Shown: in pieces, positions 1,657 to 9,185 of the stretch
Layout: every line of letters starts with the position of its first letter
Numbering within the stretch: the stretch's first letter is position 1
DNA from: Acidobacteriota bacterium
Lineage (GTDB): Bacteria > Acidobacteriota > Thermoanaerobaculia > Gp7-AA8
Length of the DNA: 64,000 bases
Reading direction: 5' to 3'
NCBI GenBank assembly: GCA_019244185.1
Contig: JAFATB010000006.1
Coordinates: 186,001-250,000 of the forward strand
Program-made: the position numbers and the translations under genes
The notes under the pieces: model-generated
Database searches by the model: none
What the model saw: only the letters and a program-made list of their open reading frames with translations
What the model was told of the DNA's origin: nothing

Positions 1657-2336
1657 TCCTCGGTTTCCTCGACATCGGCGTCAGGTTCGATTCTGCCGAA
1701 GTCATTGGCGTAGTCTTGGTCTGCAGCATCCGGCACTACTGCTGCCGACGTGCGCACGAGTGTGGCGGCATCAGGAACGCTGATGGCCCACAGCTGTGGA
1801 TACTTCCAGTCGTCGACGTCATCACGATCGTAATCGCTCGGCATCGGGCAGACGAGTTCGAGGGAAACGTCACCGGTGCCATCGACGTCCCAGAGGAGCA
1901 CGAGATTGTGGGCGTTGAAGAACTCCTCCGTGTTGGCGTCGAAGAGGATGCGGTTCTCTTCCAAGAAAGCCTTGCGTGATCCGGATCGGCCAGGCAGTGG
2001 TATGCCGCCTTTTCTGCTCTTCCAGAGCTTGAGTTTTCGCCCGCGATAGAGGATTTCGACGCCGCTCATTGCCATCATGCGTATGCTCGGCGCGGTGTCA
2101 TCATCGGTTACCTCGGTGAGCGTCGCGTCGTACTCTGCTTGACGGAGCAGTCGACAGACATGCCAGCGGACGAGATGGGGAAATAGGTGCGGGTCGAGTG
2201 TGGGGTCACCGTTTTGTTTCTTAGGCGCCCACTCGTCGAAGTGCTGTAGCGCAATCGGTACTGCCTCTTGAAGGAAGCCGTGAATCTTGGAGGGAAGCGG
2301 CTGCAGGTCGTCGAGTGCCCGGATCGCGTCGCTCAT
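1653..2336 (-). CDS. conserved-looking protein of unknown function, partner of XRE/ImmA gene
   Basis: A 227-residue soluble protein with no signal peptide or membrane segment. I recognise no domain. It has an aromatic and basic middle (VEILYRGRKLKLWKSRKGG) followed by a beta-rich segment (NAHNLVLLWDVDG, then VSLELVCPMP), and ends in a very acidic tail (GRIEPDADVEETEE). It is the first gene of the three-gene operon and overlaps the XRE/ImmA start by four bases, which implies translational coupling and a stoichiometric partner. Its start codon lies back to back with the divergent AbiEii reading frame; a 17-bp palindrome at 2354-2370 sits just upstream and could control it. It may be the protein bound or cleaved by the ImmA-type peptidase, but nothing in the sequence proves this. 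Confidence 0.75.
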   Translation of the reverse strand: MSDAIRALDDLQPLPSKIHGFLQEAVPIALQHFDEWAPKKQNGDPTLDPHLFPHLVRWHVCRLLRQAEYDATLTEVTDDDTAPSIRMMAMSGVEILYRGRKLKLWKSRKGGIPLPGRSGSRKAFLEENRILFDANTEEFFNAHNLVLLWDVDGTGDVSLELVCPMPSDYDRDDVDDWKYPQLWAISVPDAATLVRTSAAVVPDAADQDYANDFGRIEPDADVEETEE

Positions 2337-2353
2337 GAGGTGTGTTCTCCGGA

Positions 2354-2370
2354 AGCTGATAATATCAGCT
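2354..2370. promoter_or_regulatory. 17-bp palindrome between divergent operons
   Basis: AGCTGAT-AAT-ATCAGCT is a perfect 7-bp inverted repeat with a 3-bp centre. It lies between the ATG of the 227-aa gene (minus) and the probable GTG start of AbiEii (plus). Its AT-rich centre includes a GATAAT hexamer that could be a -10 box for the plus strand. The XRE/ImmA protein encoded next door is a plausible binder. No binding evidence exists. Confidence 0.45.
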
Positions 2371-2394
2371 CAAAAGGACACGCGCAAGGACTTC

Positions 2395-3303
2395 GTGGAC
2401 CAGAGATATCGCGTGATTCGCGCGATCCAGGCCGGTTACCATGCCCAGCTCATGGATCTCGCGGAGGTTCGCCGCATCGCCATCATCGCCATGTTCGCCG
2501 ATGACTATCTTCTCGACCGCGTCGTGCTCAAGGGTGGCAACGCGCTCAGCCTGGTGTACCGCATCGGCACGCGTACGTCTCTCGACCTGGACTTCTCAAT
2601 CGAAGCTGACTTCCCCGATTCCGACGAAGCGCGAGAAAGGATTTTCCGAGCATTGCGGGCACGCTTCGATTCCGCGGGATACGTTGTCTTCGACGAGACC
2701 TTTGGGCCCCGACCGGCTGTCCAACGGCCGGGTCAGTCGCCGCGCTGGGGCGGCTACTCTGTCGAATTCAAGCTGATTGACCGAGGGCGGTTCGATGAAC
2801 TTCATCGCGACGTCGACGCTCTTCGTCGCCAGTCACTCGTTGTCGGCCCCGCACAAGTGCGCATCTTCACGATTGATCTCAGTCGGTATGAGTACTGCGA
2901 GCCGAAGCGAGAAATGGAGCTGGATAACTTCATCATCTACGTCTACACGCCGGAGATGATCGCGATCGAGAAGGTGCGGGCGATCTGCCAGCAAATGCCG
3001 GAGTATCCGCTCATCGTTCATCATCGTCCGCGTGCACGCGACTTCTACGACATCGCTCTCATCGTGAAAGAATGCAAGGTCTCATTCGCGACACAAGAGA
3101 ATCAACAACTCGTGCGCGACATCTTCGCGGCGAAAGAGGTACCGCTGTCGCTCATCGGCCAAATTGCGTCATACCGGGAGTTTCATCGCGCCGACTGGCC
3201 GAAAGTGGAACAGGCAGTCGCGGAGCAACTCCTTCCGTTCGACGACTACTTCGATTTCGTGCTCGCAGAGACTGCGAAGCTACAACCCCTTTGGAAAGAA
3301 TAA
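2395..3303 (+). CDS. abiEii: AbiEii/AbiGii-type nucleotidyltransferase toxin
   Basis: Toxin half of a type IV toxin-antitoxin system; family members are nucleotidyltransferases that transfer nucleotides to target RNAs and arrest growth. The DNA polymerase beta-like signature is clear: RVVLKGGNALSLVYR followed by RTSLDLDFSIEAD (the paired acidic metal ligands), and the conserved C-terminal block RARDFYDIALI. The track ORF opens at 2287, but that would overlap the divergent gene. I prefer GTG 2395 (302 aa) because AAGGA lies just before it and it gives the usual distance of roughly 40 residues to the VLKGG motif; ATG 2335 is the alternative. The 3' end overlaps the convergent antitoxin gene by 24 bp. 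In classical AbiE loci both genes sit in one operon with the antitoxin first, so this orientation is unusual. Confidence 0.85.
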   Translation: MDQRYRVIRAIQAGYHAQLMDLAEVRRIAIIAMFADDYLLDRVVLKGGNALSLVYRIGTRTSLDLDFSIEADFPDSDEARERIFRALRARFDSAGYVVFDETFGPRPAVQRPGQSPRWGGYSVEFKLIDRGRFDELHRDVDALRRQSLVVGPAQVRIFTIDLSRYEYCEPKREMELDNFIIYVYTPEMIAIEKVRAICQQMPEYPLIVHHRPRARDFYDIALIVKECKVSFATQENQQLVRDIFAAKEVPLSLIGQIASYREFHRADWPKVEQAVAEQLLPFDDYFDFVLAETAKLQPLWKE

Positions 3304-4149
3304 CCGCCACTCAGCGTCATACTCGGGGTCGCGCAGACCATGCGCCAAGTAGAAGTCAAACTTCAGCCCGAGATCCTTCAGTCGCCGCCACCGACTCTCC
3401 TCGTATCCAGCGCGCTGCAGGTAGAACCCAATCGCCTGATGGTACGGATACGCGTACTCGAGACGCTTCAGTGTTGCGAGCAGGACATTCACCGAGAGCA
3501 CTGACTTCGCGGCGGCAAAGGCCTCCAAGACGTGAAAGACACCGCCGGCATATGCCGGCCGCACCGTGCTGTCGATGAGCGTCCGCTCCAGCTTCGTGAC
3601 AGCGAGCTTCTCGCCCGTCGGCCCGTCAAGCTCTCCTACCTCCAACCCTCCGGTGTTCTTGCCGGCGATGACGACAATCTGAAAGTCACTGTACGTGTAC
3701 GCGAGATTCGAGACTCGCTGCTGGTTCCGAAAGGCCCGATCGATCCCCTCCTGCGTCAAGCCCCCCCGCGGCGCTGGCTTGGGCGACTGCTCCTGGTTCA
3801 CGTAGATCGTGCGTGGAAGCTCATTCGTGAGGTTGTGGAGAAAGATCGCCGTACCATGCGAGAGGTACGATCCCGGCTTGATAGAGAGCGCAACCTCGTA
3901 CGGACTGGCCGCTCGCCAGATGTACCGCACGACCGGGGCATACGCGTGGGACTCAAGGCGCACCTCCTGCAGCCCGTGCAAACTCAAGAACCGAATGAAG
4001 TCAGCCGTGGTGGTATTCTGGGCGAGTCGCCAGAAACCCCGTTGCTCACGAAGGATGTCCGCGATCTGCCGAGACGAAAGAGCGCGCAAAGGCTGCTTAT
4101 CGAGCTCAGCAAGAATGTCGCGCTTTGCGATCTGAAGCCGGGTGGCCAT
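3280..4149 (-). CDS. abiEi: AbiEi-type antitoxin / transcriptional autoregulator
   Basis: Antitoxin half of the AbiE pair. The N-terminal ~80 residues form a winged-helix-like region (ALSSRQIADILREQRGFWRL). The middle has the family's cargo-recognition look (YEVALSIKPGSYLSHGTAIFLH), and the hallmark VTKLERTLIDSTVRP lies near residue 190. AbiEi proteins neutralise the toxin without stable complex formation and repress their own promoter by binding inverted repeats. Two perfect palindromes lie upstream of this gene, as expected. The track begins at a TTG; I choose the next codon, ATG 4149, because a TATACT -10 box ends 9 bases upstream, which would give a leaderless or nearly leaderless mRNA. 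There is no Shine-Dalgarno sequence. It is transcribed toward its toxin and overlaps it by 24 bp. Confidence 0.88.
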   Translation of the reverse strand: MATRLQIAKRDILAELDKQPLRALSSRQIADILREQRGFWRLAQNTTTADFIRFLSLHGLQEVRLESHAYAPVVRYIWRAASPYEVALSIKPGSYLSHGTAIFLHNLTNELPRTIYVNQEQSPKPAPRGGLTQEGIDRAFRNQQRVSNLAYTYSDFQIVVIAGKNTGGLEVGELDGPTGEKLAVTKLERTLIDSTVRPAYAGGVFHVLEAFAAAKSVLSVNVLLATLKRLEYAYPYHQAIGFYLQRAGYEESRWRRLKDLGLKFDFYLAHGLRDPEYDAEWRLFFPKGL

Positions 4150-4158
4150 CAACCCAAG

Positions 4159-4168: not shown

Positions 4169-4198
4169 GTCGCGCTAGGTATATATACCTAGCGCGAC
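4169..4198. promoter_or_regulatory. 30-bp perfect palindrome, proximal abiEi operator
   Basis: A perfect inverted repeat with half-site GTCGCGCTAGGTAT and a 2-bp AT centre. It shares the 18-bp core CTAGGTATATATACCTAG with a second palindrome 104 bp upstream but differs in the outer bases. Its position over the abiEi promoter fits the known negative autoregulation of AbiE-type systems through inverted repeats. Confidence 0.75.
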
Positions 4199-4272
4199 AG
4201 GCAATCCGCTCCTCGCTCCGCCGCTCATGAGTTCATCATTCCTCGGCGACTGCTGAGCCCCATGCAGGTCTG

Positions 4273-4302
4273 GTGCTCCTAGGTATATATACCTAGGAGC
4301 AC
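4273..4302. promoter_or_regulatory. 30-bp perfect palindrome, distal abiEi operator
   Basis: Half-site GTGCTCCTAGGTAT, perfectly repeated in inverse, with the same CTAGGTATATATACCTAG core as the proximal site. Centre-to-centre distance is 104 bp, about ten helical turns, so both sites face the same side of the DNA and could be bridged by dimers (inference). Confidence 0.7.
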
Positions 4303-4532: not shown

Positions 4533-4579
<47 letters not shown>

Positions 4580-4597
4580 TTGAATACAAAGAACTTA

Positions 4598-4754: not shown

Positions 4755-7700
4755 TCAGCGGCTGAACTGTTTCAGCGCGTCTTCATCGCGCTCATTGATC
4801 TTCTTCAGCTGCGCAGCCGTCTTGCGTTCCGCGTAGGCGATCATCGCGCGCGGCTGATCCGTCAAGGCACGTCCTAGCCAGAGCGGATCGCCGCGACGGG
4901 TGAGAAGAAGCGGGGCGCCAGAGTTGATGAGCACCTCCAAAAGCGCCCAAGCCTCTGTACCGCGCGAGGTCGCGAGGTCGTCGAGCAACTGCTTCACGCG
5001 TCGATGATGGACCTGGAACCAAACGGCTGACTGCGCGAACCTCCGGACCATCGGATCCACATCTTCAATCGAAAGCCTCGCGACCATCTCCGAAGCGAAG
5101 TCGTCGAACCACCCGGCGACCTGCGCTCCGGCTGCTCGAACAAACGCGTCGTCGCCCATGAGCATTTTTCCGATGCGCGTGGTGACCTTCGGTTCCTGCT
5201 GGAGCCTACGTAGCGCACGACAGATGTACGGGCGAATCAACGAACTGCGCTCGTGCGGCAAATGTCCCAAAAGCACTTCCGCTCCACGCAGCGCGTCGAT
5301 ATCGATCAGCAAGTCTGGATACGGCGTCCGATCGCCGGTGCTCGACAGAGCAGCGTAAGCCATCTCGAACGCCACCGTCGGCTGCCGATGAATCAGTCCA
5401 CGGATTGCGCCGCAGCGGCCATCGGAGCGTGGGTTTGCTGCGTCGACGAGCAGCACGTCCGTCGCCTCCTCGTTGTCGAGATAGCCGATGGCGTCGTAGA
5501 ACGCGGCCGTCGAACGCCAGAAGTAGCGGTGCTCGCGTTGTGCGAATCGCCACACCACCTCGGCCAGCCGAGTGCGGCCCGACTTGATCACCATCCGCGC
5601 TACAATCCACGCCAGATCGTCGGAGATCCGGAGTGGATCGAGCGCGAGAAGCAACTGCTCGAGCTCATCGAGTGCTTCATCCGTTCCGATCGCGCGCAGA
5701 GCATACGCTACGGACACCGCCTCACGAAGGAAATCGAGCCGGCGGATCGTTGCTACGGGGGTGCTTTCGTCAGTGAGCATCCGGACTGCTGTCAGCACGG
5801 CGCCTTCATCCTCGTAGGGAATACTGCTCAGTGCGAGATCGACGAGCATTTCCACCAGATCCGAGCGTCCGGATACAGCCAGGATTTGGCTCACGCGCGA
5901 ACGCGCTTCAGGATCCTTCAACGCTGCGACCATCGGAGCGATCTCGTCATCTGTCGCCGGAGGTAAATCGACGAGAAGTTCCGCGAGCTCGTCATCGACC
6001 CACAATCGCGAGTCTTCGAACAGCAGTGACCGCACCCGCGAGCGCTCGCCCATCGCCGCGAGCGCACGCAGCGCAGCCATCCGACGCGTCGTGTGCTCGT
6101 CGTCATCTTCACCGGCGCGAGCAATCGCAGCCAATCGTTCGACGGCATCGGACGAAGGCGTGGTAACCATGCTACGGATCTCCGTGCCGCACCACGATTG
6201 GCAGGCGTCGAGTTGATGCAGGAGAAACCGTTCCAGTTCGGCCCCGCCGATGCTCAGAAGCAGCCGGTGCACCTGCCGCACGAAGTGCCGGTCGAGCGTG
6301 TTCGAGCCATGCGGCGTAAACATCACGGCCACCTCGTGCAGCTTCCGCGGCAGCGCTGCGTCTCGCTGCTCGCGCAGTATGCGCAGGCCGTCCCTTGAAT
6401 CGATGGATGCAAGAAGTTCGATCAAGTGCTCCAGATCCGGCGGTGGACGGTCCGGGCGGTCACTGCTCAGCGTACTGTCGATCATTGCCTCCAGACGCTC
6501 GAGCGCGGCATCGATCGTCTGTTCATCGATCTCACGCTCGCCGCCGAAAGCCCCGTGAAGTGCAGCGCAGCTGTATTGGCCCGACTGAAACTTGTCGCGG
6601 ATCGCGGTTCGAGTCCGGTCTGGAATGGTCAGGAGAAGCGGCGACAACCACCAGTCCTCGTAAAAGGACATGCGCTCGACTTCAGACCGTTCGAAGATTC
6701 CGATTGCCACCTCCGGCTTAAGGCGGCATAGGGCGGCGAATGCTTCCTGAGTCACCCAATCGGCTTCGCTGTGAGTCCACTGAATGAGGTAGTCAACCGC
6801 ATCCGAATCGCGATAACGATCAATACAGTCGATTGCCCCGCGGAACCCGTCGTTTCGGAATGCATCGAGAAAGATCGGTTTCAAATCGAACCAGAGTCGT
6901 CGTCCGTCCTCATTCGCCAGGACGGCAACGAGCCACCCAAGGGTCCTCAGCTCTTCACGATCCGTCTTTGCGGTGGTCGCCGTACGGATCCATTCAGGAT
7001 CGACGCGGCAGCATGCTACGAGCGCGTGCTGCGCAAGCTGCTCTCGGTGATAACCCTCTCCGTCTTTCCCAGCGAGCTTACGCTCCCGATACAGCCGCCA
7101 AATGACGTTGAGAAGACCACCGGACGGTTGCAGTCGCGCAAGTTCAAGGCCGGCGTCCTGCACCTCGGCATTCGCGTCCTGCAGCAACGTCAGAACAAAC
7201 GCGGGACCGACTGCAAACCGAGCCGCGACCTCCTTCATGCACAGCCGAGCCTCACGCACGCGATGCCATGGCGCTTCAGGAACGCGCATGCGACTCAGAA
7301 GCGCTGGTAGCAATCCGGGCCCGATCGTGGGGAGCAGCTCTTCATATAGTTTCTGACTGGGAGCATCTTCGAGTGCCTGAAGAACCTCGACGATCTCCTC
7401 AACCGAGCGGCGGTACTGGACCAGCAACCAGACCACGTCCATCGCCACGTATCCAAGATGCCGCTCCCCTTTCTGCCGAGTCCGTCCAAACAGGTCTGCC
7501 ACCACCTCCGCTACCTTCGTTGAACTCCATTTGCCGCGTTCAAGTTGCGCAAGAACGGCACGTGCGACAGCCCAGTTCAGAAATCGATCGTGCGCGAACT
7601 CCACGCCACCGTCGACGTGAACACGCAGCCACCCGAGGCGCTGCAGCCGTAACTGCATCTCGGACGGGATGTGCAGGCCAAGCAGCACGTCTGCAGGCCA

Positions 7701-8914
7701 CGGATACGACTCCGGGCTGTCCAGAAATGCGTTTGCCAAGGTGACGAGTACGCCGACATCCTGCGGATGCTGCGCCTGTCCTTTGGCGGTAGAGACCTGA
7801 CGCCAGAATCGATCGTACAGCTCATATTCATTCGTCGGCTGCCAATTCGCGTCCTCCGACAGCCTGCAATACAAATCGGCCAGAATGGCGCGGCGCAGAA
7901 GTTCGAGGACGTCCTGTGGCACCCCGGCCATGCTCCGACCACGCAGCTGCAACAGCTGCGCAATTCGGACAGGCGCATCTCGCCTACCGCTTGAAGAACT
8001 ACGCGCTCCCGGACCTCGGCGTCCTCGCGGATGCGCTGGGCTGCGTTCTCGTCAGCGGTGAAGGCAACGCGAACGCCCCACTCCCTCCACGGCAGCGCGA
8101 TCAGCGCGAGCGCTTCGTCCACAGATGCCGTCAGGTCGAAGCAGACGGTCAACCAAGGCATCTCGGAGGCGATCGCCGCCTTCGCCCGCCTAACGAGCGA
8201 TTCCCAGTCGAGCGGACGATCGTGGCCTACAATGCGCTTCCAGACTTCGTCGGAGGCACGTTGCAGCGCATCCTCAATCCCCTGCCGAGTTGCAACGAAG
8301 ACGACATTCCCCGCTGCCGCGTTCTCGATGGCGACTTGCGCGAGAAGCGTTGTCTTTCCCATACCGCTTCCACCGGCGAGACAAAGAACCGTCTCGGCCG
8401 ACGGCCAGCTCACGACGCGGCGAACCGTGACCGTCACGTCGTACCGGATTTCTCCCAATCGCCGGTTCAGTTGCGCCAGCGTGGTTTCTCGGAGACCCGG
8501 GAAGCGAGCGAGCGAGATCGTCGGCAGATCCAAGCGGCGCAACAATGTCTCGAGCGTGAAGCGACGCTCCCCGCGGCTCCCGAATTGAAGCAGTAGCCCG
8601 TACAGCTCGCGGGCAACATGCGGAACATCTTCGGCGTGATCGACGTACCCGAGCAGTAACGAGCTCACTCGATCATGCGCATCGTCCGCAGACTGCCGTC
8701 GGATCTCAAACCGGGACAGAAGCGCCCACGTGCGTCGGTATGCGACGTTGTCCGGGGGATCCTCCGATTTCGAAAGACGCGCCGCCACATCGCGGAAGAA
8801 GGTCTCGTACGTGTCATCGACAAAGATGGAATCGGCTACCTCTACGATCCGGCGCGTTTCGCGGAGATCCTCGATGACGGCACGGTCGGCCTGAGACTCG
8901 CGGGAGGATGTCAA
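4755..8914 (-). pseudogene. P-loop NTPase with long HEAT-like repeat region, one frameshift
   Basis: Two track ORFs (7577-9007 and 4755-7952) are one gene split by a one-base indel near 7960. In minus sense, MRLSEL in the first frame continues as AQLLQLRGRSMAG in the second, and the total length (4160 bases) is one base short of a whole number of codons, giving about 1386 aa. I choose TTG 8914 because GGAGG lies 6 bases upstream. A Walker A motif, GGSGMGKTTLLAQV, is near residue 180, with a Walker B-like strand (PWLTVCFDLTAS) about 90 residues later. The last two thirds are helical repeats resembling HEAT (DDEIAPMVAALKDPEARSRV and many more). This is the layout of STAND/NACHT-like sensors, many of which act in phage defence; that role is inferred. 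It could be inactive, corrected by frameshifting, or a sequencing error. Confidence 0.75.
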
Positions 8915-8984
8915 AGCACGCCTCCGCGAACAGTTTGTCGATGCCGACGAGCACCTGCCCGAGCAACCGCCGCGCGAGTGGCAC

Positions 8985-9185
8985 ATGACGACCTCGGGCA
9001 AATTCATCTTCCCTGACTACGAGCCGGTCGATGTCGTCGGGCGAGCGCTGTACTGGCAGGACATTGCGCAGCAACTCGCGCGTCAGCTGCGCCGGCTCGG
9101 TAAGGCAATCAACGCGACGAGTGCCGAGCAACCCGACACCATCGTCGAGCGCGCAATCGTTCGACTTCGAGGTACGTCCGAATGA
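8985..9185 (+). CDS. small protein of unknown function, first gene of four-gene operon
   Basis: A 66-residue soluble protein with a convincing amphipathic helix (WQDIAQQLARQLRRLGKAIN). I recognise no family. The reading frame stays open with protein-like sequence for about 30 codons before ATG 8985, but no ATG, GTG or TTG occurs there, so ATG 8985 is the best start. Its stop overlaps the ATG of the next gene (ATGA at 9182-9185), implying translational coupling. It is divergent from the NTPase gene, with only about 70 bp between the two starts, so both promoters must overlap in 8915-8984 or lie within the neighbouring frames. Confidence 0.6.
   Translation: MTTSGKFIFPDYEPVDVVGRALYWQDIAQQLARQLRRLGKAINATSAEQPDTIVERAIVRLRGTSE

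Follow-up and report, generated by a model that had tools for sequence, protein, structure and literature searches.

A pair of convergent genes of the AbiE type, preceded on the abiEi side by two long perfect palindromes, was located in the window, which is the whole 64-kb stretch of DNA that was analysed (Table 1). The identity of the gene downstream of the palindromes, named abiEi by an earlier sequence-only reading, was confirmed by PADLOC and by an AlphaFold model of its product (mean pLDDT of 96.6), for which the top matches in the PDB obtained with Foldseek were the AbiEi of S. agalactiae (6y8q, 1.3e-5) and Rv2827c of M. tuberculosis (1zel, 2.1e-5). The protein has the N-terminal winged helix and the AbiEi C-terminal domain of the AbiEi-fold antitoxins. 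The Pfam family AbiEi_1 (PF09407) matched 26 of 46 relatives and gave no match with the window protein itself. The partner expected for a type IV AbiE system was recognized by the AbiEii family (2.9e-21, 76.9 bits versus a cut-off of 22.5), and the true start of this gene is probably located inside the open reading frame listed.

Table 1. Genes and palindromic features of the abiE locus (positions within the window).
Feature	Position	Strand	Remarks
abiEii nucleotidyltransferase toxin ORF	2287..3303	+	Convergent to abiEi; Pfam AbiEii PF08843 (DUF1814)
Overlap of the convergent abiEi/abiEii 3' ends	3280..3303		24 bp
abiEi-type antitoxin / DNA-binding regulator	3280..4152	-	290 aa; PADLOC AbiEi 1e-18; AF2 + Foldseek
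Proximal palindrome, GTCGCGCTAGGTATATATACCTAGCGCGAC	4169..4198		Perfect, 30 bp; inner edge ~17–20 bp upstream of the abiEi start
Core of the proximal site	4175..4192		18 bp, common to both sites
Distal palindrome, GTGCTCCTAGGTATATATACCTAGGAGCAC	4273..4302		Perfect, 30 bp
Core of the distal site	4279..4296		18 bp, common to both sites

A ~38-kb island in a tRNA-Met gene has the abiE locus at one of its ends. The intact gene lies at C6 152398-152474 (region G000:C6:152398-152480), and a 52-bp copy of its 3' part, 96% identical, was found at positions 4533-4584 of the window. The first half of this island has a G+C content of ~60%, compared with 68% in the flank. A second toxin-antitoxin-like pair, formed by an RmrA-like gene (HTH + M78 peptidase, PADLOC 2e-66) and an RmrT-like gene (7e-6), adjoins abiEii at positions 538-2336, and the stretch that separates the RmrT-like gene from abiEii contains an inverted repeat of 17 nt, AGCTGATAATATCAGCT (2354-2370), possibly an operator of that side of the locus. 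Additionally, a 1065-aa HEAT-repeat protein overlaps an ORF with a STAND/NACHT-like P-loop region at positions 4755-9007, and the two are possibly one frameshifted gene.

In the published abiE (PMC3985639), the two genes form a bicistronic operon that starts with the regulator, an arrangement that was not found at the window locus. AbiEii was also convergent in 44 of the 46 relatives in which it was detected, with 3' overlaps mostly of 24–39 bp, and in the plasmid copies read, except for that of S. suis, where it is divergent. Therefore, the proteins are of the AbiE type, but their genes are arranged differently. The loci lacking a convergent AbiEii mostly had another toxin module nearby, namely an antitoxin-AbiEii operon (divergent), HipA, PemK with an HTH/M78 protein, or Fic. 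Nine palindrome-bearing AbiEi-like regulators (L183, L187, L184, L195, L191, L153, L170, L188, and L194) were observed beside HipA, PemK with HTH/M78, Fic, or DUF6088-AbiEii, usually in divergent orientation and with the palindromes in between.

The two palindromes of the window have CTAGGTATATATACCTAG in common, and the distance between their starts is 104 bp. Their length, perfection, shared 18-bp core, spacing and coordinates, as given by the sequence-only reading, were all exact on recomputation. When folded as single-stranded DNA, the proximal palindrome formed a 13-bp stem with a TATA loop (-15.1 kcal/mol), and the distal one reached -13.1 kcal/mol. All the remaining perfect gapless palindromes of the window are of 18 bp or less. 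Allowing up to three mismatches, no third match of the 18-mer core was detected in the window (0 expected from shuffled sequences), and just the two window copies were found in the 5.3-Mb genome. The proximal site had also been said to cover the promoter. This is plausible, but a sigma-70 consensus scan recognized no promoter at the window site; a sigma-70 promoter overlapping the proximal palindrome was seen in several relatives (L186, with TTGACA-17-TATAAT, L138, L179, and L181).

Relatives of the window protein were gathered by two conserved peptide patterns in a scan of one genome per species (84,980 species), which yielded 59 relatives, a sample that differs from the whole AbiEi superfamily and includes many metagenome assemblies. 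Adding the window and another relative gives the 61 loci analysed, 57 of which had at least 150 bp of upstream sequence. By their assigned names they belong to ~ten phyla, including Acidobacteria, myxobacteria, Planctomycetota, Proteobacteria, Bacillus-type Firmicutes, Hymenobacter, Chloroflexi, and others. A total of 107 palindromes were found upstream of abiEi in 54 of the 61 loci, mostly of 28–60 bp, the commonest half-length being 14–17 bp and the maximum 30; only 13 were shorter than 28 bp. Their position just upstream of the abiEi start was kept across phyla despite changing flanking genes.

Within the same phylum, close AbiEi relatives were present in three other genera (60, 49, and 38% identity), each with two or three long palindromes upstream that have the centre GGTATATATACC and entirely different arms. 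Examples of the palindromes are TCCCTTCTCCTAATAGGTATATATACCTATTAGGAGAAGGGA (L145) and ACCATCGAGATCCCCAGGTATATATACCTGGGGATCTCGATGGT (L158). The centres of the distant clades were GGTACGCGTACC in Hymenobacter, AGTATATATACT in Bacillota, and GCATGCATGC or GCGTTAACGC in Burkholderiales, also in palindromes mostly of at least 28 bp. The plasmid relatives (Bacillota, Bacteroidota, and Pseudomonadota) showed the same layout as the chromosomes, with clade-specific cores and palindromes mostly of at least 28 bp.

The palindromes are dedicated to abiEi. Among 396 genomes of the phylum, the 14-mer AGGTATATATACCT had five occurrences, each of them upstream of abiEi, and a covariance model of the palindrome (R1) gave matches of at least 38 bits in these genomes only at the four loci that hold a close AbiEi relative, immediately 5' of abiEi. 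In 27 further genomes with a relative, all the matches with E<=0.01 were confined in each genome to a single contig, the one carrying abiEi, and coincided with the palindromes mapped upstream of it. Similarly, 103 sites with GTATATATAC centres were counted in the ~480-bp upstream windows of 50 loci versus 2 in 376 kb elsewhere, and 84 long palindromes in 29 kb of upstream sequence versus 3 in 424 kb of the remaining loci, which corresponds to a ~400-fold higher density. The sequence-only reading had asked for a search of the core elsewhere, a dispersed repeat at unrelated bacterial loci being the result that would have spoken against it; no copies were found at unrelated chromosomal loci of the genomes searched, and a dispersed repeat, either REP or a mobile palindrome, was rejected.

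The palindromes consist of a fixed core and of arms that vary freely while mirroring each other. Counting from the centre, positions 1–5 were nearly fixed, position 6 was mostly G, position 7 was A or T, and from position 8 onward the conservation was ~0–0.1 bit each. Arm positions 6–9 were more alike within loci (0.88, 0.57, 0.63, and 0.47) than between loci (0.56, 0.41, 0.27, and 0.27), so that the inner ~18 bp (positions 1–9 of each half) were kept within a locus. From position 10 outward the likeness within loci was near background, with a slight excess at position 14 on which nothing was built, and the arms beyond the core carried no sequence signal, even between the palindromes of a single promoter. 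Since the additional likeness within loci was restricted to positions 6–9, a pattern expected when each site is recognized by the protein of its own locus, the part read as sequence is bounded to ~18 bp in this clade. In the relatives from Burkholderiales and in those on Bacillota plasmids the outer arm was also partly conserved, so the length read by the protein differs by clade.

The alignment A2 shows covariation of the arms, but its rows had been selected as perfect palindromes, and therefore the unbiased figure for pairing was taken from the 103 sites, which had been picked solely by their 10-bp centre. In these, positions 8–14 paired in 87% of the cases (81–93% depending on the position) at ~0 bits of sequence conservation, which supports, at many more than two sites, the earlier suggestion that palindromy itself is selected. 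Pairing then decayed to 71% at position 15 and 57% at position 16 and reached background by ~25. The mismatches at positions 8–14 included 16 G-T and 20 A-C of 721 cells, and because both types were equally rare, the pairing constraint acts on DNA and not on transcribed RNA. AbiEi sequence recognition alone does not explain this constraint on the arms. The length of the arms showed no relation to G+C content (rho 0.06, p 0.60), and a threshold of hairpin stability thus found no support.

A concerted change of both arms was observed in four genomes of the Corallococcus group, in which abiEi is 78–89% identical at the DNA level. The orthologous palindrome has the constant centre CCCAGGTATATATACCTGGG and the outer left arms CAGGCGGAGTG, GGCGGAGTG, AAGCGCAGTG, and ACCATCGAGATC, and in each case the right arm is an exact mirror image, so both arms change together and as whole blocks. 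Moreover, the locus L192 differs from L180 (99.5% protein identity) by a 61-bp deletion that fuses the distal left half to the proximal right half, a difference that may be an assembly artefact. The hybrid is possible natural evidence for recombination at the shared core, and the deletion suggests one reason why the arms of neighbouring sites differ, since identical sites would recombine more easily.

Palindromes with the same core were also found in phage sequences. In viral contigs, the 14-bp core extended to palindromes of 24–46 bp at 11 of 90 distinct sites, and 13 of the 90 reached at least 20 bp. With a control core matched in composition (AGGATATATATCCT), 0 of 98 sites did so, and a core-driven artefact was rejected. 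With a second core variant, TGGTATATATACCA, 3 of 97 sites were of at least 28 bp. The contigs L016, L017, L015, L039, L081, L091, L094, L121, L426, L376, and L428 each had a single palindrome of 26–46 bp with the GGTATATATACC core, mostly intergenic, and no abiE on the contigs checked; that of L121 lies at a convergent gene end, with a run of T behind it, and may be a terminator. No AbiEii and no convincing AbiEi (one weak match, E 0.0084) were present in the 11 contigs of the first set, and no AbiEi relative was detected in the searches made of viral contigs and annotated phages. With abiEii absent from these records and abiEi absent at usable significance, a phage-borne abiE as the carrier of the palindromes was rejected. 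A PHROG search of the genes beside them revealed no common function.

The operator and autoregulation reading proposed earlier is supported by the position of the palindromes upstream of abiEi, where they occur at most of the loci and not elsewhere in the genomes searched. They are very probably dedicated autoregulatory operators of a convergent subfamily of AbiE (type IV toxin-antitoxin) with arms that are palindromic whatever their sequence. The palindromes of the phage contigs, where neither abiEi nor abiEii was detected, and the missing sigma-70 consensus at the window site speak against this reading, and so does the fact that DNA-binding proteins have no need of palindromic arms of free sequence. 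The AbiEi of S. agalactiae and Rv2827c of M. tuberculosis are autorepressors acting on inverted repeats over the promoter (PMC3985639, PMC7319586); the former uses two 23-bp repeats with positive cooperativity and the latter four repeats with negative cooperativity (PMC7319586). By homology with these proteins, a dimer of the AbiEi-like winged-helix antitoxin would bind each palindrome, reading its inner ~14–18 bp, and at the proximal site, over or next to the abiEi promoter and start region, it would shut abiEi off. The one to three distal sites, mostly 40–140 bp further upstream, could strengthen the repression by cooperation or bending. Because abiEii is convergent, such a loop would tune the supply of the antitoxin alone and not that of a whole operon. 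Outside the core read as sequence, the arms would have to mirror each other to at least 14 bp per half, in any sequence.

Two explanations, both compatible with the operator reading, concern only why the arms match. It is possible, although less likely than not, that the arms are functionless and are equalised by template-switch copying after a fold-back at the TATATATA centre, perhaps aided by tightly bound AbiEi. Template switching is known to homogenise and extend the arms of inverted repeats (PMC8604942, PMC3820800), and the whole-block changes of the Corallococcus group, the independence of arm length from G+C, with no visible threshold of hairpin stability, and the long tail of arm lengths beyond 14 bp per half are as expected from copying. 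However, neutral copying has no step such as the drop in pairing after position 14, palindromes shorter than 28 bp are few, and of the 90 viral-contig sites built on this 14-bp core, 77 do not exceed 18 bp, so the core alone is no driver. The other explanation, a rather unlikely one, is that arms of any sequence let the AT centre extrude as a cruciform or hairpin, under negative supercoiling or in single-stranded DNA, and so switch AbiEi binding and promoter activity. The palindrome itself, and not its outer sequence, would then be the selected signal, and the phage copies may be AbiEi decoys, which is put forward with the same reserve. Palindromy at the DNA level without sequence conservation, the AT-only centre, the minimum of ~28 bp and the ideal stems of 13–21 bp are consistent with extrusion. 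Transcription leaves negative supercoils upstream of a gene (the twin-domain principle), as that of abiEi should do here. By contrast, the lack of correlation between arm length and G+C argues against a cruciform, and duplex DNA is the usual target of winged-helix folds such as that of AbiEi. The fall in pairing past position 14 speaks for selection up to that point, and the tail beyond it for a copying process. In place of a cruciform or hairpin function, the matching arms may thus stem from copying by template switches with the inner 28 bp then under selection.

Two further explanations do not take the palindromes as DNA operators. Transcribed hairpins, acting as an attenuator, an sRNA or a tRNA-minihelix mimic for the AbiEii toxin, would fit a variable stem with a constant tip, which is typical of RNA hairpins, and several proximal palindromes touch the start codon or the ribosome-binding region. 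Yet an RNA stem would favour G-U, and the mismatch counts above show no such excess; no Rfam family matched at the gathering score, and the terminator pattern is absent at the window site. An RNA element is thus highly improbable and was rejected. A recombination or mobile-element site (an insertion palindrome, an att-like site or a hairpin telomere) that merely accompanies abiEi on islands could be suspected from the location of the locus at the end of the tRNA-Met island, from the similar palindromes in phage contigs, and from the breaks at palindrome cores in L180/L192 and L142. This reading appears largely refuted by the exclusive linkage to abiEi in the 396 genomes, and it is extremely improbable, as the palindromes hold their place just before the abiEi start in different phyla, whatever the flanking genes, and chromosomes and plasmids share one layout.

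Operators are usually viewed as sequences read by a protein. In the palindromes of abiEi, mirror symmetry is kept while the outer letters drift, even between the sites of one promoter, and such sequence-free mirrored arms are not expected of ordinary protein-binding sites. They provide a natural set of more than 100 sites from many phyla for asking what DNA palindromy does in living cells. Additionally, the convergent AbiE subfamily obtains a simple marker, since one 14-mer picks exactly the loci with close AbiEi relatives among the 396 genomes, and the same regulator is also found beside HipA, PemK, Fic, and divergent AbiE operons. Neither convergent AbiE nor hypervariable palindromic operators were found described in the open-access literature searched.

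Among known systems, the template-switch mutation of quasi-palindromes (PMC3820800, PMC8604942) shares with these palindromes a concerted change that leaves the two arms of an inverted repeat identical; it is described as a mutation, and not as a conserved regulatory site of minimum length beside one gene family. Rv2827c-Rv2826c (PMC7319586) has in common two sets of inverted repeats upstream, one of which overlaps the promoter in M. tuberculosis, and the fold match to 1zel, whereas it differs in its tandem 23-bp repeats with 13-bp gaps within pairs, its half-sites that fit a consensus, and its operon. With the abiE operator of S. agalactiae (IR1/IR2; PMC3985639) the family shares a winged-helix antitoxin of the AbiEi fold and inverted repeats upstream of its gene, and putatively also their overlap with the promoter and autorepression. 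In S. agalactiae there is one pair of repeats (23 bp-N3-23 bp, with 4 mismatches) and an abiEi-abiEii operon overlapping by 4 nt (PMC3985639), whereas the family of the window has gapless perfect palindromes, usually two or three, with a fixed centre and free arms, before a convergent gene pair.
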